This document shows positions 8,118-20,211 of a stretch of DNA of 40,625 nt, in pieces. The position numbers were made by a program, and so were the translations under genes. The stretch lies in the NCBI GenBank assembly GCA_903844055.1, contig CAIMSF010000119.1:1-40625 (forward strand), in the 5' to 3' direction. Each line of letters starts with the position of its first letter. The first letter of the stretch is position 1. The DNA comes from an uncultured bacterium (GTDB taxonomy: Bacteria; Bacillota_I; Bacilli_A; Izemoplasmatales; Hujiaoplasmataceae). The notes under the pieces were generated by a model. That model was not told the DNA's origin, searched no databases, and was given only the letters and a program-made list of their open reading frames with translations.

Positions 8118-8157
8118 AAAAAAGAAAACGGCGACTCCCCGTCGGGAATCGCCGTTT
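8118..8157 (-). terminator. Terminator of the hydrogenase operon
   Basis: AAACGGCGACTCCC (8126-8139) pairs with GGGAATCGCCGTTT (8144-8157) with a single T/G wobble and a 4-nt loop. Read on minus the stem is followed by TCTTTTTTAGG. It lies 10 nt past the hydA stop. Confidence 0.85.
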
Positions 8158-8167
8158 GACATGCGGA

Positions 8168-9922
8168 CTATTTGGAATAGGCGTCGCGTTTCTTGTAATG
8201 CGTGTGGAGCAGTTCGTGGGAGAGGTGCGAGGCGGGTTCGCCCAGGAAGTCGGCATAGACTTTCTTGACCGCTTCGTTCTCGTGCGACTTGCGGAAGGCC
8301 GATCCCTGGTCGATCGCATAGAGGACCTTCGTACGGCGTTCGCGGATGTCGAACTTGCCCTGGTTCGGGGCGGTGATGATCGGCTGGCCGCCGCCGTTGA
8401 TGCAGCCGCCGGTGCAGCCCATGAATTCGACGAAATGGTATTGCTTGCCGGAAGTCTTCATCATTTCGAGGAACTGCCCGATCGCCTTGCCGCCGTGCAC
8501 GACGGCGACGTTGACGTCGATGCCGGCGACCTTGTAGGTCGCTTCCTTGATGTCCCGGAGGCCGCGGACGTCGGTGAATTCGACCGGCGTGGAATGGCCT
8601 TCGAGGATTTCCGTGACGGTGCGGAGGGCGGCTTCCATGACGCCGCCGGTGGCGCCGAAGATCGAGGCGGCGCCGGTGTATTTGGCGAGGTCCCCATACG
8701 GCTTGATCGGATCGAGTTCCTGGAACTTGATGCCTCTGTGGCGGATCAGGCGGGCGATCTCGCGCGTCGTGAGGACGATGTCGACGTCGCGGTAGCCGTC
8801 GCGGCCCATGTCGGGACGCTTCGCTTCGGCCTTCTTGGCGACGCAGGGCATGATCGAGACCGAGACGATGTTCTTCGGGTCGAGGCCGAGCTTGTCGGCG
8901 TAATACGTCTTGATCAGGGCGCCGGCCATCTGCTGGGGCGATTTGCAGCTCGAGAGGTTCGGGATGTACTCCGGATAGTATTGTTCGAGGTAGTTGATCC
9001 AGCCCGGCGAGCAGGAGGTGAAGAGCGGGAGGACGCCGCCGTTCTTGACGCGGTTGATGAACTCCGTGCCTTCTTCCATGATCGTCAGGTCGGCCGAGAA
9101 GTTGGTGTCGATGACTTCCTTGATGCCGAGGGCGCGGAGGGCGGCGAACAGCTGTCCTTCGACGTTCGTTCCGGGCTTGTACCCGAACTCTTCGCCGAGC
9201 GCGGCGCGCACGGCGGGAGCGACCTGGGCGACGACCGTCTTGGACGGGTCGCGGAGGGCGCGCTCAAGCGCCTTGATGTCGTCCTTCTCGCGGATCGCGC
9301 CGGTCGGACAGGCCTGGATGCACTTGCCGCAATAGATGCAGCCGGCATCTTCGAGGTTGGTGAAGAGGGCGGGACCGACGTAGGTCTTCGAACCGCGGCG
9401 GTTGAAGTTGAGGATGCCGAGGCCGGTGTACTTCTCGCAGGCGGAGACGCAGCGGCCGCAGAGGACGCACTTGGAGGAGTCGATGACCATCGCGCCGGAC
9501 GATTCGTTCAGCTTGCGGTCCTTGTGCTTGAAGACTTCCTCGTTGGAATAGTTGTTGTCGACGGAGAACCGGCGGAGCAGGTCGAGGAATTCGCAGCTCG
9601 TTTCGCGCGAGCACTTCCAGCATTCGAACTTGTGGTTGCCGGCGAGCAGTTCGAGGTTGCTTGAGACGGCGTCGTAGACTTCCTTGGTATTGGTCTTGAC
9701 GGACATGCCTTCGGATACGGTCGTGCGGCAAGCCGGCTTGAGGCCCTTCTGGCCTTCGATCTTGACGACGCAGACGCGGCAGTTGCCCTCTTCGTGGATG
9801 CCCTCGAGGAAGCACAGGCGGGGAACCGCGACGCCGGCCGCCTCGGCGGCCTTGAGGACGGAATAGGATTCGGGGACGGCGATCTGGATCTTGTCGATCG
9901 TGACGTTGACGAGTTTATCCAC
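8168..9922 (-). CDS. hydA: [FeFe]-hydrogenase catalytic subunit HydA/HndD
   Basis: The protein has 584 residues and reduces protons to H2 (or the reverse) at the H-cluster. In order: a [2Fe-2S] domain (Cys about 37, 48, 51, 65), a His-Cys3 [4Fe-4S] site (HKFECWKCSRETSC), two ferredoxin [4Fe-4S] sites (CVLCGRC...C and CIYCGKCIQACP) and the H-cluster domain. The last has L1 TSCSPGW, L2 MPCVAKKAE and L3 EFMGCTGGCINGGGQP. All H-cluster cysteines are present. Ser after the L1 Cys (TSCSPGW rather than TSCCPAW) is typical of the trimeric/tetrameric NAD-linked, often electron-bifurcating enzymes. GTG 9922 is preferred because GGAGG lies 10 nt before it; TTG 9928 is an alternative. It overlaps hydB and is last in the operon. 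The maturases HydE, HydF and HydG are not in this window. Confidence 0.96.
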   Translation of the reverse strand: MDKLVNVTIDKIQIAVPESYSVLKAAEAAGVAVPRLCFLEGIHEEGNCRVCVVKIEGQKGLKPACRTTVSEGMSVKTNTKEVYDAVSSNLELLAGNHKFECWKCSRETSCEFLDLLRRFSVDNNYSNEEVFKHKDRKLNESSGAMVIDSSKCVLCGRCVSACEKYTGLGILNFNRRGSKTYVGPALFTNLEDAGCIYCGKCIQACPTGAIREKDDIKALERALRDPSKTVVAQVAPAVRAALGEEFGYKPGTNVEGQLFAALRALGIKEVIDTNFSADLTIMEEGTEFINRVKNGGVLPLFTSCSPGWINYLEQYYPEYIPNLSSCKSPQQMAGALIKTYYADKLGLDPKNIVSVSIMPCVAKKAEAKRPDMGRDGYRDVDIVLTTREIARLIRHRGIKFQELDPIKPYGDLAKYTGAASIFGATGGVMEAALRTVTEILEGHSTPVEFTDVRGLRDIKEATYKVAGIDVNVAVVHGGKAIGQFLEMMKTSGKQYHFVEFMGCTGGCINGGGQPIITAPNQGKFDIRERRTKVLYAIDQGSAFRKSHENEAVKKVYADFLGEPASHLSHELLHTHYKKRDAYSK

Positions 9923-11732
9923 GGACAATCGCCCTCCAGTCTTCCGGTTTGCTCGAGATGGCGTTGACCGGGCATGCCTTCTTGCAGGCGCCGCAGCGGA
10001 TGCACTTGTCGAGATCGATCTTGTGTTTCTGCTTGACCGTGCCGGAGATCGCGCCGACCGGGCAGTTCTTCATGCATTTGGTGCAGCCGATGCACTTGTC
10101 GGTGATGACGAAGTTGGTGAGGTTCGGGCACACGCCGGCGGGACAGATCTTGTCCACGACATGGGCGACGTATTCCTCGCGGAAGTGCTTGAGCGTGGAC
10201 AAGACCGGGTTCGGGGCGGTTTGTCCGAGTCCGCAGAGGGAGGTGTCCTTGACCATGTTGCCAAGCGACTCGAGCGTGTCGAGATCCTCGAGCGTGCCGT
10301 CGCCGCGGCAGATCTTGTTCAGGATGTCGAGCATGCGGCGCGTGCCTTCGCGGCACGGCGTGCATTTCCCGCACGACTCGTCGACGGTGAAGTCGAGATA
10401 GAAGCGGGCGACGTCGACCATGCAGTTGTCCTCGTCCATGACGATCATGCCGCCGGAGCCCATCATCGAGCCGAGCGCGATCAGGTTGTCGAAGTCGATC
10501 GGGGTGTCAAGCGACTTCTCGGTGATGCATCCGCCCGAGGGACCCCCGGTCTGGACCGCTTTGAACTTACGCTTGTTGGGGATGCCGCCGCCGATGTCGA
10601 AGATGACCTCGCGGAGCGTCGTTCCCATCGGGACTTCCAAGAGGCCGGTGTTGGCGATCTTGCCGCCGAGCGCGAAGACCTTCGTGCCGGAGGATTTGGC
10701 GGTGCCGATCGCCTTGAACCAGTCCGGACCCTTGAGGTAGACGACCGGGACGTTGGCGAACGTTTCGACGTTGTTGACGTTGGTGGGATGGCCCCAGAGA
10801 CCCTTGACGGCCGGGAACGGCGGTTTGAGGCGGGGCATGCCGCGGAAGCCTTCGATCGACGCCATGAGCGCGGTCTCCTCGCCGCAGACGAACGCGCCGG
10901 CGCCGAGACGGACCTCGATGTCGAAATCGAAGCCGGAATTGAAGATGTTCTTGCCGAGCAGGCTGTATTCGCGCGCCTGTCCGATCGCGTGGTTGAGGCG
11001 TTCGACCGCGACCGGATATTCGGCGCGGCAGTAGATGTAGCCCTGGTGGGCTCCGATCGCGTAGCCGCAGATCGCCATCGCCTCGAGGACCGAGTGCGGG
11101 TCGCCTTCGAGCACGGCGCGGTCCATGAAGGCGCCCGGGTCGCCTTCGTCGGCGTTGCAGATGACGTACTTGACCGGGTCGTTGGACTTGGAGGCGAATT
11201 CCCATTTCTGACCGGTCGGGAAACCGCCGCCGCCGCGGCCGCGGAGGCCGGAGCGTTTCATCCAGTCGATGACTTCGAGCGGTTTCAGCTCGGTCAGGCA
11301 CTTGCCGAGGGCGAGGTAGCCGTCCTTGGCGATGTATTCGTTGATGTCGAGCGGGTTGATGTTGCCGCAGTTGCGGAGCGCGATGCGCTTCTGCTTGGCG
11401 TAGAACTTCAGTTCGCCGAAGTTCTTGACCTTCTGCTTGTCGACCGGGTCCTTGACGATCAGGCGTTCGACGGGGCGTCCCTTGAGGACGTGCTCCTCGC
11501 AGATCTCATGAATGTCGGCGACGGTCACGTGGGAATAGAACGTCTCGTCCGGATAGACGATGACGACCGGTCCCTTCTCGCAGAGTCCGAAGCAGCCGGT
11601 CATGACGAGCTGGACTTCGTCGCGAAGTCCCATCTCCGACAGGGCCTTGTCGAACTCGGTGCGGATTTCCTTGGAATGGGAGCTGAGGCAGCCGGTGCCC
11701 CCGCACATCAGGATCTGCATTCTTTCGAGCAT
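9915..11732 (-). CDS. hydB: NADH-binding hydrogenase subunit HydB/HndC (NuoF-like)
   Basis: The protein has 605 residues. An N-terminal thioredoxin-like [2Fe-2S] domain carries Cys about 10, 15, 47 and 51. The NuoF core (about 110-500) has the FMN/NADH glycine-rich segment RGRGGGGFPTGQKW and CNADEGDPGAFMDR, and the [4Fe-4S] motif SCGKCTPCREGT. Two ferredoxin [4Fe-4S] sites close the protein (CIGCTKCMKNCP and CIRCGACKKACP). This is the standard architecture of the flavin subunit in NAD-linked [FeFe]-hydrogenases, where NADH oxidation is coupled to ferredoxin and HydA. It overlaps hydA by 8 bp and follows the HndB-like gene by 9 bp. Cytosolic. Whether it truly bifurcates cannot be read from sequence alone. 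Confidence 0.96.
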   Translation of the reverse strand: MLERMQILMCGGTGCLSSHSKEIRTEFDKALSEMGLRDEVQLVMTGCFGLCEKGPVVIVYPDETFYSHVTVADIHEICEEHVLKGRPVERLIVKDPVDKQKVKNFGELKFYAKQKRIALRNCGNINPLDINEYIAKDGYLALGKCLTELKPLEVIDWMKRSGLRGRGGGGFPTGQKWEFASKSNDPVKYVICNADEGDPGAFMDRAVLEGDPHSVLEAMAICGYAIGAHQGYIYCRAEYPVAVERLNHAIGQAREYSLLGKNIFNSGFDFDIEVRLGAGAFVCGEETALMASIEGFRGMPRLKPPFPAVKGLWGHPTNVNNVETFANVPVVYLKGPDWFKAIGTAKSSGTKVFALGGKIANTGLLEVPMGTTLREVIFDIGGGIPNKRKFKAVQTGGPSGGCITEKSLDTPIDFDNLIALGSMMGSGGMIVMDEDNCMVDVARFYLDFTVDESCGKCTPCREGTRRMLDILNKICRGDGTLEDLDTLESLGNMVKDTSLCGLGQTAPNPVLSTLKHFREEYVAHVVDKICPAGVCPNLTNFVITDKCIGCTKCMKNCPVGAISGTVKQKHKIDLDKCIRCGACKKACPVNAISSKPEDWRAIVRG

Positions 11733-11741
11733 GGCAGGTCC

Positions 11742-12110
11742 CTACCGTTTCACGCTCGACAACAGGTAGCGGTCGAGCCGCTTGTGGTTGACGAGGTGTT
11801 CTTCGACGATTTCATTCACCATGCGTTCGGTGACCTTGCAATAGATCGACGACGTGCCGTCCTGATCGACGATCTCGACGATCGGTTCGAACGCGCATTC
11901 GCCCATGCAGCCGACCTGCGTGATGACGATGTTCTTCAGTTCATGCTCGTTGATTTCCTCGACGAACTTGTTGAGGACCGGACGCGCGCCCGCGGCGATG
12001 CCGCAGGTGCCCATCCCGACCTGGATGCGCGTGCCGCCGACTTGGTAGCGCATCTGCATGTTCTTGAGGGATTGATCGCGGAGCTTTTTCAGATCTTCCA
12101 ACGATTTCAT
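11742..12110 (-). CDS. hndB: HndB-like thioredoxin-fold [2Fe-2S] ferredoxin subunit
   Basis: The protein has 122 residues. It has a thioredoxin-like ferredoxin domain with Cys in GTCGIAAGA, then a VGCMGECAFEPIVEI block with two Cys, and a fourth candidate Cys in SSIYCKVT. In Desulfovibrio Hnd and many clostridial operons a protein of this type is the fourth subunit and relays electrons between the NuoE-like and NuoF-like parts. ATG 12110 is preferred: GAGGAGA lies 8 nt before it, while ATG 12116 sits on top of that ribosome site and overlaps the upstream stop. It lies between the HATPase gene and hydB. Confidence 0.88.
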   Translation of the reverse strand: MKSLEDLKKLRDQSLKNMQMRYQVGGTRIQVGMGTCGIAAGARPVLNKFVEEINEHELKNIVITQVGCMGECAFEPIVEIVDQDGTSSIYCKVTERMVNEIVEEHLVNHKRLDRYLLSSVKR

Positions 12111-12112
12111 AA

Positions 12113-12658
12113 TCATTCTCCTCGCGTAGTTGTAATATGTTGCGTGATATATGATTTCAAATAGGCGCCGATCTGGGGAGCGGTGAGCGGGACCCCGTCC
12201 ATGATGGTTCTGATTTCTCCGAGCGAAAAGCGGAAGTGCCGGCCGTCGCAGAGGTGCGCATATCGGAATTCCTTGATGTCTTGATGCAGGCAGATCGTGT
12301 AGATCGATTCCGCCATGTCCCCGAGGGGGGGCGTGTTGACGTGACTTCGATGAAAGCTGGCTTCGACGACGGTGCCGATCCCCGGCTCCGACGTGATCCG
12401 GAAGGATCCGTCCGCAAGTTCGGCCGCCATCTTGAGGAACGGCAAGCCCAGTCCGACCTTGCGGGTCGTCTTGGTGGTGAAGAACGGATCGACGGCGTTT
12501 CGGAGGGTCGTTTCATCCATGCCCTTGCCGTCGTCGATGACGCTGAGGACTAGCGTGTCGGTCGCGGAATCCTCGCGGATCACGACGCCGATGTCGGCCG
12601 CCTGCGCGGCGATCGAGTTTTGGACGATGTCGAGCACGAAGAGCGACAGGTCATCCAT
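12113..12658 (-). CDS. Stand-alone histidine-kinase-type ATPase (HATPase_c) in the hydrogenase operon
   Basis: The protein has 181 residues. Residues 1-110 are a GHKL/HATPase_c domain with an N box (LDIVQNSIAA), a G1 box DDGKGM and a G2 box GLGLPFLKMAAE. There is a usual 'FFTTK' lid (DPFFTTKTTRKVGLGLP), and the last part ends with FRITSEPGIGTVVEASF. There is no dimerisation/phosphohistidine domain or sensor. The C-terminal 70 residues (after MAESIYTIC) are not recognised. Such lone ATPases are conserved in clostridial HydABC operons without a known partner. It may phosphorylate or remodel a neighbour such as the DRTGG proteins; that is inference. It overlaps the PHP gene by 8 bp. Confidence 0.85.
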   Translation of the reverse strand: MDDLSLFVLDIVQNSIAAQAADIGVVIREDSATDTLVLSVIDDGKGMDETTLRNAVDPFFTTKTTRKVGLGLPFLKMAAELADGSFRITSEPGIGTVVEASFHRSHVNTPPLGDMAESIYTICLHQDIKEFRYAHLCDGRHFRFSLGEIRTIMDGVPLTAPQIGAYLKSYITQHITTTRGE

Positions 12659-13352
12659 GGCGAAGCCTCCGGAAGAGGGCGTCGATGGTCAATTCAGGCA
12701 GGTCGATGACGTTGTCGTCTCGATGTTCGGCGATGGCCGCCAGGTCGTGCGCGTCCGAGTTTCGGAGCGCCATGACTCCCGCCAACCCGTGTTCTTTCAA
12801 AAATCCGGGATGGGCGTGAATAGAGAGTTCGATGCCGTCCATCGGCATCGTCCCGATCAACCCGATGCCGGAGTTGGCCGGGCGGTCGACATGCGCGAAG
12901 AAACGCAGATGATCATACCGGTCGAGCAGCCCGCACAGCTCGGGAAGGCCGATCGGCAGATTCTGATGGAGCTTGTACGGAAGCACCGCGACGGTCTGGT
13001 CCTCATCGTCCGTCAAGACCGGTTCGCCGTTTCGAACCGGGCCTTCGGGGGTTTTGTCGATGAGCGCTTCGAGTTCCCGATCGAAAGCCATCGCTTCGTC
13101 GGAATGCCGAAAATAACAGAGGATGTGGCTGCCGTCTTGGATCGTCACTTCGACGCCGGGGACGAACAGGAGCGCGTAGCTTTGGGCGATGCGTTCGAGC
13201 ACGGGCAGCTGTTTCAAACTGTTGTGGTCGGTGACCGACAGGATGTCGAGCCGCTTGAGGGTCGCCATGTTGAACAGGTTGTTCGGGGTCATGAGGACGT
13301 CCGCGCAGGGCGAGAGCACCGAGTGGACGTGCAGGTCGTAATGGTAGTTCAT
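12651..13352 (-). CDS. PHP-domain metal-dependent hydrolase in the hydrogenase operon
   Basis: The protein has 233 residues. It carries the polymerase-and-histidinol-phosphatase (PHP) metal motifs: HVHS near residue 8, a VTDHN motif near 41, a glutamate in PGVEVT, HVDRP near 156 and NSDAHDL near 202. These residues normally bind two or three metal ions and hydrolyse phosphoester bonds. Its substrate is unknown; as a phosphatase it could reverse the action of the neighbouring kinase-like ATPases. It lies between a DRTGG gene (4-bp overlap upstream) and the HATPase gene (8-bp overlap downstream), an order also familiar from clostridial hydrogenase operons. Confidence 0.88.
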   Translation of the reverse strand: MNYHYDLHVHSVLSPCADVLMTPNNLFNMATLKRLDILSVTDHNSLKQLPVLERIAQSYALLFVPGVEVTIQDGSHILCYFRHSDEAMAFDRELEALIDKTPEGPVRNGEPVLTDDEDQTVAVLPYKLHQNLPIGLPELCGLLDRYDHLRFFAHVDRPANSGIGLIGTMPMDGIELSIHAHPGFLKEHGLAGVMALRNSDAHDLAAIAEHRDDNVIDLPELTIDALFRRLRHG

Positions 13353-13681
13353 AAGAGTCCGCGTCGCGTGAAATCGACGATGACGTCGACCGCCTTGTAC
13401 GACGTTTCAAGCAAGGCGATGCCTTCCCGGTCCGCCCGCGAGACCATCTCGGGGGTGGCGCGGCAGCCCTCGCAGAAGATGATCGCGGAAAGGTCGATGA
13501 GGCTGGCGACGGCCACGGCGTTCATGTTGGCCATGACGGTGACGAGGACGTTTTGGGGCTGGGCGCTCTTCATCACGACGCTCAGCAGGTCGCCCGCATA
13601 GACGCCGAGATAGTCGGCTTGCTCGCTTCCGGCGTGCGTGACGAGCCGGTAATCGCCTTGCAGGATGCTAGCGATTTTCAT
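13349..13681 (-). CDS. DRTGG-domain-like protein, copy 2 of the hydrogenase operon
   Basis: The protein has 110 residues, soluble, alpha/beta. The pattern YLGVYAGDLLSVVMKSAQPQNVLVTVMANMNAVAVASLIDLSAIIFCEGCRATPEMVSRADREGIALLET fits the DRTGG fold: a nucleotide-associated sensory domain seen beside CBS domains and in phosphotransacetylase. The literal DRTGG signature is not present. Repeated strand/helix units ending 'GI-LLET' support the assignment. It overlaps the RsbW-like gene by 14 bp and the PHP gene by 4 bp. A single Cys pair (FCEGC) could be redox active, but this is only a suggestion. Its role is presumably sensory. Confidence 0.7.
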   Translation of the reverse strand: MKIASILQGDYRLVTHAGSEQADYLGVYAGDLLSVVMKSAQPQNVLVTVMANMNAVAVASLIDLSAIIFCEGCRATPEMVSRADREGIALLETSYKAVDVIVDFTRRGLL

Positions 13682-14111
13682 CCCGGTCCGCCTCCGTGAT
13701 GTTGAATTTCAGTTTCAAGACGGTACCGTTCGGATCGGACAGGATATCCATCTTGTCGACCGACTTGAGGATGTTGGAAAATCCCATTCCGGCGCCGAAT
13801 CCGTTCAGCCGCGATTCTTCGGAAGCCGTCGAGTAGCCCGGCGTCAGCGCGAGCTGGATGTCGGGGATGCCGGGACCGATGTCGACGAATTCGAGGTAGA
13901 GCGCGTCCTCGCAAATCTTGAACGCGGCCTTCCCGCCGCGCGAATGGATCACGATGTTGATTTCCGCCTCATAGGCTGCGACGGAGACCCGCTTGATGAA
14001 CTCGCGGGAGAAATGCATGCTTTTCAAAGTCCTTTTGATGTCGGAAGAGGCCCGGCCGGCGAAATTGAAGTCGTTCGGGATGATGTCGTACCGCTTATCG
14101 ACGGCGATCAT
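13668..14111 (-). CDS. RsbW-like anti-sigma-factor type ATPase in the hydrogenase operon
   Basis: The protein has 147 residues. It is a GHKL ATPase of the RsbW/SpoIIAB class: an N-box region RVSVAAYEAEINIVIHS (the N box of RsbW reads 'a..EA..N...H'), then FVDIGPGIPDIQLA as the G1 box and GFGAGMGFSNILKSVDK as the G2 box. RsbW proteins are serine kinases that phosphorylate small STAS proteins and hold sigma factors. No STAS or sigma gene is in the operon, so the target here is probably different, perhaps one of the adjacent DRTGG proteins. It overlaps the first DRTGG gene by 4 bp and the second by 14 bp. Confidence 0.88.
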   Translation of the reverse strand: MIAVDKRYDIIPNDFNFAGRASSDIKRTLKSMHFSREFIKRVSVAAYEAEINIVIHSRGGKAAFKICEDALYLEFVDIGPGIPDIQLALTPGYSTASEESRLNGFGAGMGFSNILKSVDKMDILSDPNGTVLKLKFNITEADRDENR

Positions 14112-14488
14112 TTCTTCGAGGCGATGCCGACGATGCCTTCCTGATACAACCTGCCGCTCAGGTTGAACATCGTGAGTTCCGTGCCGATCAGGGTGATTCC
14201 GGATTCATCGGCGAGATCGATCACCTGCTGCGCGGGGATTTTCCCGCGGACCAGGCAGACGATCTGGACGTCGAGCATTTCGGCGGTGCGGATCGATTGG
14301 TTCGTGGCGAGCCCGGTGATCAGGACGGAATCCTCGAGGATGCCGGATTCGCGGACCGTGCTCATGATCATGAGCGCGTCGCTCATGAGGTCGGAACAGA
14401 ACGCATACCGGATCTCCTTCCCCGTATTGAAGGGGGTCCGGGAATAGACGTTGCATTTGTACTTTTCGATGATTTGTCCCAGGGTCAT
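14108..14488 (-). CDS. DRTGG-domain protein, copy 1 of the hydrogenase operon
   Basis: The protein has 126 residues. The sequence DSVLITGLATNQSIRTAEMLDVQIVCLVRGKIPAQQVIDLADESGITLIGT matches the DRTGG domain layout: a Gly-containing loop after a strand, then helix, strand, 'G..P...V...A...GI..I'. Such domains occur as regulatory modules and are thought to bind a nucleotide-like ligand. It is the second gene of the operon, 4 bp after the NuoE-like gene. It shares only general fold features with the other DRTGG-like gene at 13349, so the two may have distinct roles, for example sensor and partner. Confidence 0.8.
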   Translation of the reverse strand: MTLGQIIEKYKCNVYSRTPFNTGKEIRYAFCSDLMSDALMIMSTVRESGILEDSVLITGLATNQSIRTAEMLDVQIVCLVRGKIPAQQVIDLADESGITLIGTELTMFNLSGRLYQEGIVGIASKK

Positions 14489-14492
14489 AGGG

Positions 14493-14972
14493 TTACCTGA
14501 TCCCGGCCAGAACTTCTCTGGCTTTCTGAACCGTCGTGTTGCCGTAGACCGTCTCGTTGACCGTGAAGGTCGGTGCGAGGCCGCAGGCGCCGATGCAGCG
14601 GGTTGCCTGCAGGGTGAACTTGCCGTCCGCCGACGTCTCGCCGGCTTTCAGCTTCAGATCGTCCGCGAAGGCGTCGAGGACGCCTTGCGAACCGCGCACG
14701 TAGCATGCCGTCCCAAGGCAGACGCTGATGATGTTTTCGCCTTTGGGTTCGATGGAGAACATGCTGTAGAACGTGACGACGCCGTTGATCTTGGCGACGC
14801 TTTCGTGCAATTCCTTGCCGATGATCTTTTGAATCTCGATCGGGACGCAGCCGAAAATCGACTGCGCTTCCTGAAGGGTAGGCATCAATGGACCCGGTTT
14901 GAGTTTGTTTCTTTCCATCGCTGCATACAATTTGGCAAGTCGTTCCTTGGTGATGAGGACTTTCGTGCCCAT
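14493..14972 (-). CDS. hydC: NuoE-like hydrogenase subunit HydC/HndA
   Basis: The protein has 159 residues with the thioredoxin-like [2Fe-2S] fold of the 24-kDa complex I subunit. An N-terminal helical bundle (LMPTLQEAQSIFGCVP) is followed by the GVVTFYSMFS block and cysteines 85 and 90 (CLGTACYVRG) and 126 and 130 (CIGACG). All four ligands are present. It passes electrons within the NAD-linked hydrogenase. It is the first gene of the nine-gene operon, with AAAGGAG upstream of the ATG at 14972 and an extended -10 promoter at 15015-15023. Confidence 0.95.
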   Translation of the reverse strand: MGTKVLITKERLAKLYAAMERNKLKPGPLMPTLQEAQSIFGCVPIEIQKIIGKELHESVAKINGVVTFYSMFSIEPKGENIISVCLGTACYVRGSQGVLDAFADDLKLKAGETSADGKFTLQATRCIGACGLAPTFTVNETVYGNTTVQKAREVLAGIR

Positions 14973-15014
14973 GTTTCATACGCTCCTTTCCTGGTATTCT
15001 TGTTGGCACACAGA

Positions 15015-15023
15015 TTATAGCAT
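15015..15023 (-). promoter_or_regulatory. Extended -10 promoter of the hydrogenase operon
   Basis: TGCTATAAT on minus, a perfect extended -10. The -35 zone is occupied by the T-run of the upstream terminator and has no TTGACA-like hexamer. Start of transcription near 15008, leader about 36 nt. No Rex-like or other palindrome was recognised. Confidence 0.65.
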
Positions 15024-18904: not shown

Positions 18905-18981
18905 TGGCGGTCCCGACGGGATTTGAACCCGCGATCTCCTGCGTGACAGGCAGGCATGTTAGACCACTACACCACAGGACC
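18905..18981 (-). tRNA. tRNA-Asp(GTC)
   Basis: 77 nt with encoded CCA. The acceptor GGTCCTG pairs with CGGGACC, discriminator G, anticodon loop CTGTCAC. Closely similar to Bacillus tRNA-Asp. Last gene of the second tRNA unit. Confidence 0.96.
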
Positions 18982-18986
18982 GCTTA

Positions 18987-19062
18987 TGGTGGTTCAGGCC
19001 AGAATTGAACTGGCGACACATGGATTTTCAGTCCATTGCTCTACCAACTGAGCTACCGAACC
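18987..19062 (-). tRNA. tRNA-Phe(GAA)
   Basis: 76 nt with encoded CCA. Acceptor GGTTCGG pairs with CTGAACC, anticodon GAA, discriminator A. Confidence 0.96.
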
Positions 19063-19064
19063 AT

Positions 19065-19141
<77 letters not shown>

Positions 19142-19163
19142 ATTTGGTATTTAGCGCTATTTA

Positions 19164-19192
19164 ATAATACAATACGGCGTCCCGAATGTCAA
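19164..19192 (-). promoter_or_regulatory. Promoter of the fMet-Phe-Asp tRNA unit
   Basis: Minus strand -35 TTGACA (19187-19192), exact 17-bp spacer, -10 TATTAT (19164-19169). Start near 19157, so the leader before tRNA-fMet is about 16 nt. Confidence 0.85.
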
Positions 19193-19248
19193 GACGAACC
19201 GCACGCCGCGCAGCGCCGCAGCGTCAATCCTTGCTATGGTGGCTCTTT

Positions 19249-19282
19249 AAAAAAAACCCCGAATGACGGTTCGGCGTTTTTT
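19249..19282 (-). terminator. Terminator of the first (ten-gene) tRNA unit
   Basis: On minus AACGCCGAA pairs with TTCGGGGTT with one internal G-G mismatch and a 6-nt loop, followed by a T-run (A-run on plus at 19249-19256). It separates the tRNA-Val end from the next tRNA promoter. Confidence 0.8.
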
Positions 19283-19290
19283 CTTTGCCG

Positions 19291-19366
19291 TGGTGGAGAT
19301 TGACGGGATCGAACCGCCGACCCTCTGCTTGTAAAGCAGATGCTCTCCCGGCTGAGCTAAACCTCC
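19291..19366 (-). tRNA. tRNA-Val(TAC)
   Basis: 76 nt with encoded CCA. Acceptor GGAGGTT with AATCTCC, anticodon loop TTTACAA. Last gene of the ten-gene unit. Confidence 0.95.
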
Positions 19367-19369
19367 GAT

Positions 19370-19445
19370 TGGTGGAGTATAGGGGGATTGAACCCCTGAC
19401 CTCCTGCATGCGATACAGGCGCTCTCCCAGCTGAGCTAATACCCC
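19370..19445 (-). tRNA. tRNA-Ala(CGC)
   Basis: 76 nt with encoded CCA. The acceptor GGGGTAT has the alanine identity pair G3-T70, and the anticodon loop is ATCGCAT, giving CGC. A dedicated GCG reader fits the GC-rich genome. Confidence 0.93.
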
Positions 19446-19449
19446 ATTG

Positions 19450-19536
19450 TGGTACCCAAGGCCGGACTTGAACCGGCACGACATTGCTGTCATTGGATTT
19501 TAAGTCCAACGCGTCTACCTATTCCGCCACTCAGGC
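19450..19536 (-). tRNA. tRNA-Leu(TAA)
   Basis: 87 nt with long variable arm (class II) and encoded CCA. Anticodon loop CTTAAAA. The acceptor stem GCCTGAG with CTTGGGT has three G-T wobbles, more than usual. Confidence 0.92.
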
Positions 19537-19549
19537 TTTGTAATCCGGA

Positions 19550-19625
19550 TGGTGACCCGCAGGCGATTTGAACGCCTGACCCTTTGATTAAAAGTCAAAT
19601 GCTCTACCTACTGAGCTAGCGGGTC
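19550..19625 (-). tRNA. tRNA-Lys(TTT)
   Basis: 76 nt with encoded CCA. Acceptor GACCCGC fully paired, anticodon loop CTTTTAA. Confidence 0.95.
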
Positions 19626-19663
19626 TTATATGCAAGCCCGATCGCCCGAGCTTTGGAAAACGA

Positions 19664-19740
19664 TGGTGCCGACTATAGGAATTGAACCTACAACCTACTG
19701 ATTACGATTCAGTTGCTCTGCCGGGTTGAGCTAAGTCGGC
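19664..19740 (-). tRNA. tRNA-Thr(CGT)
   Basis: 77 nt with encoded CCA. Acceptor GCCGACT with AGTCGGC, anticodon loop ATCGTAA. Confidence 0.94.
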
Positions 19741-19745
19741 GTTAC

Positions 19746-19836
19746 TGGCGGAGAAAGAGGGATTCGAACCCCCGCGGCGTTCGCACGCCCTATCGGTTTT
19801 CAAGACCGACCCCTTCAACCGCTTGGGTATTTCTCC
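19746..19836 (-). tRNA. tRNA-Ser(TGA)
   Basis: 91 nt, class II with long variable arm, discriminator G and encoded CCA. Acceptor GGAGAAA with TTTCTCC, anticodon loop CTTGAAA. Confidence 0.95.
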
Positions 19837-19849
19837 GGGAATCCTATCG

Positions 19850-19926
19850 TGGTGGACCCGGCAGGACTCGAACCTGCGGCCAATCGGTTATGAGCCGATA
19901 GCTCTAACCAACTGAGCTACGGGTCC
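19850..19926 (-). tRNA. tRNA with CAT anticodon, probable tRNA-Ile2 (lysidine-modified)
   Basis: 77 nt with encoded CCA. Anticodon loop CTCATAA. The acceptor GGACCCG and body resemble B. subtilis tRNA-Ile2 (GGACC... CTCATAA), while the next gene upstream resembles elongator tRNA-Met and the initiator is at 19065. It would read ATA codons after lysidine addition by TilS (gene at 36277). The Met/Ile2 split is by resemblance only. Confidence 0.8.
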
Positions 19927-19953
19927 GATGCGCGTGATCTCTTCAAATTATGA

Positions 19954-20030
19954 TGGTAGCGGCGGTGAGACTTGAACTCACAACCTCACGGGTATGAACC
20001 GTACGCTCTAGCCAGTTGAGCTACACCGCC
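19954..20030 (-). tRNA. Elongator tRNA-Met(CAT)
   Basis: 77 nt with encoded CCA. GGCGGTGTAGCTCA start and the GGTTCATACCC anticodon arm are close to B. subtilis elongator tRNA-Met. G1-T72 acceptor end. Confidence 0.9.
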
Positions 20031-20047
20031 ACGCGAACAAAAAAGTC

Positions 20048-20123
20048 TGGTGGAGTATAGCAGAATCGAACTGCCGACCTCCTGCTTGCAAAGCAGACGC
20101 TCTCCCAACTGAGCTAATACCCC
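20048..20123 (-). tRNA. tRNA-Ala(TGC)
   Basis: 76 nt with encoded CCA. G3-T70 alanine identity pair, anticodon loop TTTGCAA. It shares the acceptor stem and most of the body with tRNA-Ala(CGC) at 19370. Confidence 0.96.
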
Positions 20124-20133
20124 GATAAAAAAG

Positions 20134-20211
20134 TGGTGGGCCTAAATGGACTTGAACCATCGACCTCGCGCTTATCAGGCGCGCGCTCTAAACCACCTGA
20201 GCTATAGGCCC
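20134..20211 (-). tRNA. tRNA-Ile(GAT)
   Basis: 78 nt with encoded CCA. Acceptor GGGCCTA fully paired, anticodon loop CTGATAA. First gene of the array. The Ile-Ala order is the pair usually found inside rRNA operons, but no rRNA is here. Confidence 0.95.

Follow-up and report, generated by a model that had tools for sequence, protein, structure and literature searches.

The window analysed here, the whole 40,625-nucleotide (nt) contig CAIMSF010000119.1 of an uncultured bacterium of the Izemoplasmatales (family Hujiaoplasmataceae; assembly GCA_903844055.1), carries on its minus strand a nine-gene unit in the order NuoE/HndA, D1, AS, D2, PHP, HK, HndB, HydB and HydA. The five open reading frames (ORFs) that a first-pass annotation, made from the sequence alone, had placed between the NuoE-like and HndB-like genes of this [FeFe]-hydrogenase operon are all present on that strand, and they are a widespread control cassette that until now had gone without an explanation. 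Judged by comparison with related genomes, the five genes of the window are a form of this cassette that lacks a sensor gene, here called HydS, found in most of its relatives. The features of the unit are as follows (aa, amino acids).

14493..14972, minus strand: operon gene 1, a NuoE/HndA/HydC-type [2Fe-2S] subunit (ORF, Pfam)
14108..14488, minus strand: D1, a DRTGG-domain protein, 126 aa (ORF, 112-sequence alignment, AlphaFold, Foldseek)
13668..14111, minus strand: AS, a SpoIIAB/RsbW-like GHKL ATPase, 147 aa (ORF, profile and structure matches)
13349..13681, minus strand: D2, a second DRTGG-domain protein, 110 aa (ORF, profile comparison)
12651..13352, minus strand: PHP, a metallohydrolase, 233 aa (ORF, conserved metal ligands, fold)
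12113..12658, minus strand: HK, a lone HATPase_c protein of HydE type with a conserved C-terminal extension, 181 aa (ORF, Pfam)
11742..12116, minus strand: HndB/HydD-like thioredoxin-fold [2Fe-2S]-type subunit (ORF, Pfam)
9915..11732, minus strand: HydB/HndC, the NADH/FMN (NuoF-fold) subunit (ORF, Pfam, NCBIfam)
8168..9928, minus strand: HydA/HndD, the [FeFe]-hydrogenase group A6 catalytic subunit with motifs TSCSPGW, MPC and MGCTGGC (ORF, NCBIfam)
8126..8157, minus strand: terminator-like hairpin 3' of hydA, 14 pairs with a 4-nt loop and a T-rich tail (consensus match only)
15014..15019, minus strand: possible -10 box TATAAT upstream of the operon (by eye; a scan gave no -35 box)

The junctions from NuoE to HndB measure +4, -4, -14, -4, -8 and -4 nt in the window; neighbouring genes thus overlap or lie only a few bases apart, which supports their translational coupling. 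The same coupling, already proposed in the first-pass annotation, recurs across up to 121 loci, where the median junction is -4 nt at D1/AS, D2/PHP, PHP/HK and HK/HndB. The nine-gene order is kept in 15 of 15 relatives as far as their contigs extend, with variants across Bacilli and Clostridia. Our survey of 392 genomes of the phylum, each at least 90% complete, found HydA in 145; the PHP gene occurs in 37 genomes, every one of which has HydA (Fisher p = 3.9e-18), and PHP lies within about 5 kb of hydA in 36 of them, the remaining locus being truncated by a contig end. This co-occurrence is far beyond chance. A genome-wide scan supplied at least 80 named loci, and among the matches listed there are three layouts. 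The cassette is in-line in the hyd operon as in the window, or, in Lachnospiraceae among others, divergent from a NuoE-HK-HndB-HydB-HydA operon, or it precedes rnf genes, as in Sedimentibacter, Caloranaerobacter and further taxa. Cassettes with neither hyd nor rnf beside them showed no further recurrent partner in their flanks.

The first-pass annotation had treated the five genes as the whole module, and this did not hold, since elsewhere the cassette has a sixth member. Its usual form is D1-AS-HydS-D2-PHP(+HK), and in most Clostridia and many Bacilli the HydS gene between AS and D2 encodes a protein of about 400 aa. This protein has a pair of [4Fe-4S] motifs at its N terminus, an H-domain that keeps all four H-cluster cysteines with no cysteine ahead of the first, and a C-terminal Cx2Cx4Cx16C motif. 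This architecture agrees with how the group D (M2e) putative H2-sensor hydrogenases are defined by sequence (PMC8163306); Carere et al. (PMC3561251) place such sensors upstream of bifurcating hydrogenases, often with a kinase between. Of 113 related cassettes, 79 have HydS. We did not find HydS or any group C or D sensor in the window or in the whole window genome, where the best matches were copies of HydA and a protein of 432 aa that does not carry the C-terminal motif. The window locus thus adjoins a bifurcating HydABC-type operon and keeps the homologous partner order of a group D cassette, and the HydS gene itself is missing.

On a tree of AS, D2 and PHP (113 rows) the distribution of HydS needs two changes. 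One set of HydS-less loci is a fully supported clade of 32 rows comprising the window and the Acholeplasma, Izemoplasma and Anaeroplasma types, and separately there are two Bacilli loci. We read the HydS-less state as the result of losses, a polarity that depends on a root that is not independently fixed. The active-site residues of AS, PHP and HK are conserved in the HydS-less relatives, so the remaining partners appear to work without the sensor. Partners from HydS-bearing and HydS-less cassettes differ at D1 N62T, D2 W46L and PHP N103; these are too few positions to map an interface, and we set that approach aside.

If the cassette had lost its function along with HydS, it should by now be eroding, and in one genus (g48) it is. 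There we observed a full cassette with HydS (G139, L079), a cassette whose PHP gene has three in-frame TGA codons (G303, L098), and a remnant of one DRTGG gene and HK (G121, L185). As an account of the window cassette such decay is highly improbable, given that the deep HydS-less clade of 32 rows retains its catalytic residues and that all 15 relatives share the gene order to the extent that their contigs allow.

The first-pass annotation had also tied the module to the hydrogenase, and a hydrogenase-only role is contradicted by two sets of loci. Some copies of the cassette lie upstream of rnfCDGEAB; at one of these (L126) Pfam matches confirmed RnfC, RnfD, RnfG, RnfE/A and RnfB downstream of the cassette, and no HndB. 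RnfC and HydB both carry NADH/FMN Complex1_51K and SLBB domains. Further, intact cassettes stand beside HydA proteins that have lost H-cluster cysteines in three Izemoplasma-type genomes (L032, L034 and L038 in G045, G035 and G037), where the motifs read SSSAAGW/APG, TSKAPGW/MPT and TSCSHSF/VPS; the same genomes encode HydG/HydF and additional copies of HydA. A third observation that sets the cassette apart from H2 is the scarcity of HydG among HydA-bearing genomes, cassette-bearing ones included, which is described below. With the sensor gone and the rest intact, these data suggest that the cassette watches electron balance (ferredoxin/NADH) rather than hydrogen.

Both ATPases of the cassette have complete ATP-binding boxes. 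AS is SpoIIAB-like (TIGR01925, E-value = 1.7e-9; structure matches to PDB 1th8 and 1til) and retains the GHKL N, G1 and G2 boxes as ExxxNxxIH, DxGPGI and GFGAGMG, which bears out its earlier designation as an RsbW-type ATPase. HK is a clear HATPase_c protein with intact N14, DxGxGM, GLG and GT boxes and some 75 additional, conserved aa at its C terminus. It is indeed a lone HATPase, as first annotated; what that annotation missed is that HK matches HydE of Acetobacterium woodii (PMC3315566) in position and kind and travels with HndB. Pfam searches found no DHp/H-box domain in HK, and no response regulator was found among the operon genes, and on these grounds we rejected a two-component phosphorelay.

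The homology of AS to SpoIIAB (the TIGR01925 and 1th8/1til matches) would fit classical anti-sigma partner switching of hydrogenase transcription. AS shares its ATPase fold and ATP boxes with the SpoIIAB/SpoIIAA/SpoIIE and RsbW/RsbV/RsbU systems, but those act on a STAS substrate with a SpoIIE phosphatase, and the window genome, which is 98.95% complete, gave no match to PF01740 (STAS) or PF07228 (SpoIIE). Its four sigma70-family proteins are one of 392 aa (housekeeping) and three of 182-187 aa, the size of extracytoplasmic-function (ECF) factors; judged by size, none appears to be a SigB or SigF factor, and the cassette has no DNA-binding protein. AS is therefore unlikely to run a classical switch, and we regard this explanation as very unlikely. 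In the place of the STAS partner the cassette has its DRTGG proteins. Because the genome has neither STAS nor SpoIIE, these are the natural partner candidates of AS, and their earlier proposal as sensors or partners is strengthened by their being the obvious ones within the cassette.

The DRTGG identity of D1 and D2 needs a caveat, as both fall under the Pfam DRTGG cut-off when scored singly (E-value = 0.07 and 0.0025). Their homologues exceed that cut-off, the D1 and D2 profiles match each other with 99.6% probability, and the AlphaFold model of D1 (predicted local distance difference test, pLDDT, 93.7) matched 3l2b, 3l31, 2ioj and 1ko7 in Foldseek, among them AF1212, HPr kinase and a pyrophosphatase from Clostridium perfringens through its DRTGG domain. 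Relatives' scores, the profile match and the D1 fold thus place both proteins in the family, as first proposed. Among 112 sequences the invariant or near-invariant residues of D1 are D33, M35, S36, D37, T58, G59, Q64, R67, T68, D73, R81, K83 and G112, mainly charged or polar; those invariant in D2 are D31, L32, L33, S34 and T48. At one aligned position the two proteins carry conserved opposite charges, R81 in D1 and E71 in D2 (window numbering), such as might be expected of a putative D1:D2 heterodimer.

The PHP protein also scores under its Pfam cut-off, though its fold is evident, and so are its metal ligands: H8, H10, D42-H43, E68, H154, D200 and H202 are conserved at 95-100%. The first-pass designation as a PHP phosphatase-type protein therefore stands for the fold and metal site but is in doubt for the implied substrate, since the nearest structures to its model (pLDDT 95.5) are Endonuclease Q (EndoQ), RNase AM and the AMP-bound phosphoesterase 2yb1, which are nucleic-acid and nucleotide enzymes rather than protein phosphatases. 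This resemblance invites an explanation in which AS and HK would be ATP-bound adaptors, the DRTGG proteins would bind a small nucleotide, for instance an adenine nucleotide or ApnA, and its hydrolysis would fall to PHP. The occurrence of a DRTGG domain in the adenine-nucleotide-regulated pyrophosphatase CBS-PPase (3l2b/3l31) and the mostly charged or polar invariants of D1 are in keeping with it. In that pyrophosphatase, however, the nucleotide is generally understood to sit in the CBS domains and not in DRTGG, and we consider this explanation unlikely.

The reading that we favor, tentatively and at somewhat less than even confidence, makes the cassette a post-translational switch, driven by ATP, that acts on NADH/ferredoxin oxidoreductases with a NuoF-fold NADH subunit, namely HydB of HydABCD and RnfC of Rnf. 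In its favor we count the co-occurrence with HydA, the tie of cassette-linked Hyd operons to HndB, the HydS-bearing relatives and the two changes on the tree, the conserved active sites of HydS-less relatives, the rnf-linked copies, the cassettes beside H-cluster-less HydA, a PHP-HK fusion, the missing STAS, SpoIIE and SigB/SigF-size proteins, and the distance-matrix correlations given below. Gene set, order, coupling, intact active sites, the missing HydS and the Rnf and non-hydrogenase partners are thus observed, whereas we infer the chemical steps, the direction of control and the ligand as follows. AS and HK would bind ATP and then phosphorylate or hold the DRTGG proteins; these, D1 above all with its invariant charged residues, would read a nucleotide or redox ligand; PHP would cleave the phosphoester by which the switch is set; and the result would be altered activity or assembly at the HndB/HydB side of the complex. 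HydS, where present, would supply the state of H2 or ferredoxin, an input that the window lineage may have dropped. A broader version, which we hold to be possible but doubtful, is that the cassette, rather than signalling H2, is a general switch for ferredoxin/NAD(H) poise in enzymes with a NuoF-fold NADH subunit, in which DRTGG proteins are the phospho- or ligand-partners of SpoIIAB-type ATPases that have no STAS protein, with the HydABCD complex of the window lineage either a non-hydrogenase or the bearer of a HydEFG-independent H-cluster.

Several observations weigh against the post-translational switch. The cassette is missing from 108 of the 145 HydA-bearing genomes, so HydABC can evidently operate independently of it. 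The loci were retrieved via PHP, which makes the associations among HndB, HK and the cassette conditional on PHP. As its fold is nearest to nucleic-acid and nucleotide enzymes, PHP may not act on protein at all. PHP and HK are fused in one 435-aa frame (L139 and L166, 9959-11263), but these come from two near-identical species, and the fusion is one evolutionary event. Finally, we know of no ligand for a stand-alone DRTGG protein, which also counts against the nucleotide explanation. Of the first-pass reading as a whole, the conserved and coupled module without a DNA-binding protein survives; it missed HydS, its link to hydrogenase was too specific, and its PHP protein looks more like a nucleotide enzyme.

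It is also conceivable that the cassette, and HK/HydE above all, builds or repairs the HndB-containing tetramer in the manner of chaperone-like GHKL ATPases. The HydE protein of A. woodii lies outside the active enzyme and has been given a possible role in assembly or signalling (PMC3315566), and the gene overlaps would provide matched synthesis. HndB is present in 85 of 85 scored cassette-linked Hyd operons, and both the cassette and HK are missing from the 26 operons that have no HndB, so that no Hyd operon without HndB carries HK. Against this, eight HndB-positive operons have no HK, the cassette also stands ahead of rnf where the downstream Pfam scan gave only Rnf subunits and no HndB, and a putative sensor, HydS, is a usual member; we judge an assembly role unlikely, though it and the nucleotide explanation are the serious rivals of the switch. 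Partial correlations of distance matrices recovered the HydB-HydA and NuoE-HydB pairs, linked HK with HndB, NuoE and D2, and paired D1 with AS with a wide interval. We take these pairings as hints only, as gene adjacency can mimic them.

Parts of this system have been noted before, in that the gene set occurs in annotation lists and a regulatory link for group D HydS has been proposed. The group D (M2e) TamHydS loci of Thermoanaerobacter mathranii likewise sit beside a bifurcating HydABC operon with an HK-like ATPase adjoining, and the cited portions of the papers that treat them (PMC8163306, PMC3561251) do not describe DRTGG or PHP partners. The HydS of our relatives shares the group D domain set and the C-terminal Cx2Cx4Cx16C motif, whereas the window has no HydS and some relatives are linked to rnf. 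The list for Halanaerobium hydrogeniformans Halsa_1862-1871 (PMC4237134) gives HydA, HydB, a ferredoxin-like protein, a histidine kinase, NuoE, PHP, an Fe-S hydrogenase, an Fe-S protein, an anti-sigma factor and an ORF; it is an annotation list that gives no mechanism and, unlike the window, includes a HydS-like gene. The A. woodii operon hydC-hydE-hydD-hydB-hydA1 (PMC3315566) has counterparts of HK (HydE) and the HndB-like subunit (HydD), but its five genes do not include the D1-AS-D2-PHP part found in the window. The group C HydS/hfsABCD system (PMC5707799, PMC11837493) likewise tunes fermentation balance through a protein resembling a sensory hydrogenase and its partners in phospho-signalling. 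It relies on PAS and a serine phosphatase, a pair missing from the window cassette, which has DRTGG and PHP in their stead.

How group D sensory hydrogenases relay their signal is an open question (PMC8163306, PMC13104023), for which D1, AS, D2, PHP and HK can now be named as concrete and conserved partners. The papers cited here do not describe this DRTGG/PHP composition, the sensor-less cassette, the rnf association or the cassettes beside H-cluster-less HydA. The cassette thus persists where its sensor and, at some loci, the active site of the hydrogenase have been lost, and it also accompanies Rnf.

The hydrogenase of the window raises a question of its own. Its HydA belongs to group A6 (781.9 bits against an NCBIfam cut-off of 765) and keeps the C299, C355, K358, C499 and C503 positions. 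We considered whether the TSCSPGW motif marks a dead hydrogenase and rejected this, as HydA1 of PDB 7q4v carries it too. The window genome gave no HydG match and only generic GTPase matches for HydF, HydE not having been searched there, and H2 output therefore cannot be assumed for it. HydG occurs in 14 of the 392 genomes, all of them HydA-bearing, so 131 of 145 HydA-bearing genomes have none (G000, G011, G018, G025, G193 and G103, among others); 28 of 37 cassette genomes and, by our tally, 16 of 19 HydS genomes are HydG-less. HydF was not found in 23 of the 28 genomes searched for it, single-contig ones included, and HydE, HydF and HydG queries over 1.16 of the 1.89 Mb of one cassette-bearing genome returned no maturase. 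In the HydG-less set, C299, M353, C355, K358, M497, C499 and C503 are unchanged in 62 of 62 HydA sequences. Because HydG and HydF are missing yet the diiron-contacting residues are kept, it would seem, from sequence at least, that these proteins either acquire the H-cluster by a novel maturation route or serve HydABCD complexes with another role; a literature phrase search for missing HydEFG gave no match. A substitute maturase encoded by the cassette does not explain the pattern, as most HydG-less HydA-bearing genomes also have no cassette. Most of the surveyed HydA-bearing Bacilli genomes are HydG-less, which bears on claims of H2 production by them.

Another HydB-HydA pair of the window genome lies on a short contig (G000:C120:3317-5023, L179), where no cassette gene was found. 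Elsewhere in the window, 13 tRNA genes are clustered on the minus strand at 18905-20211.

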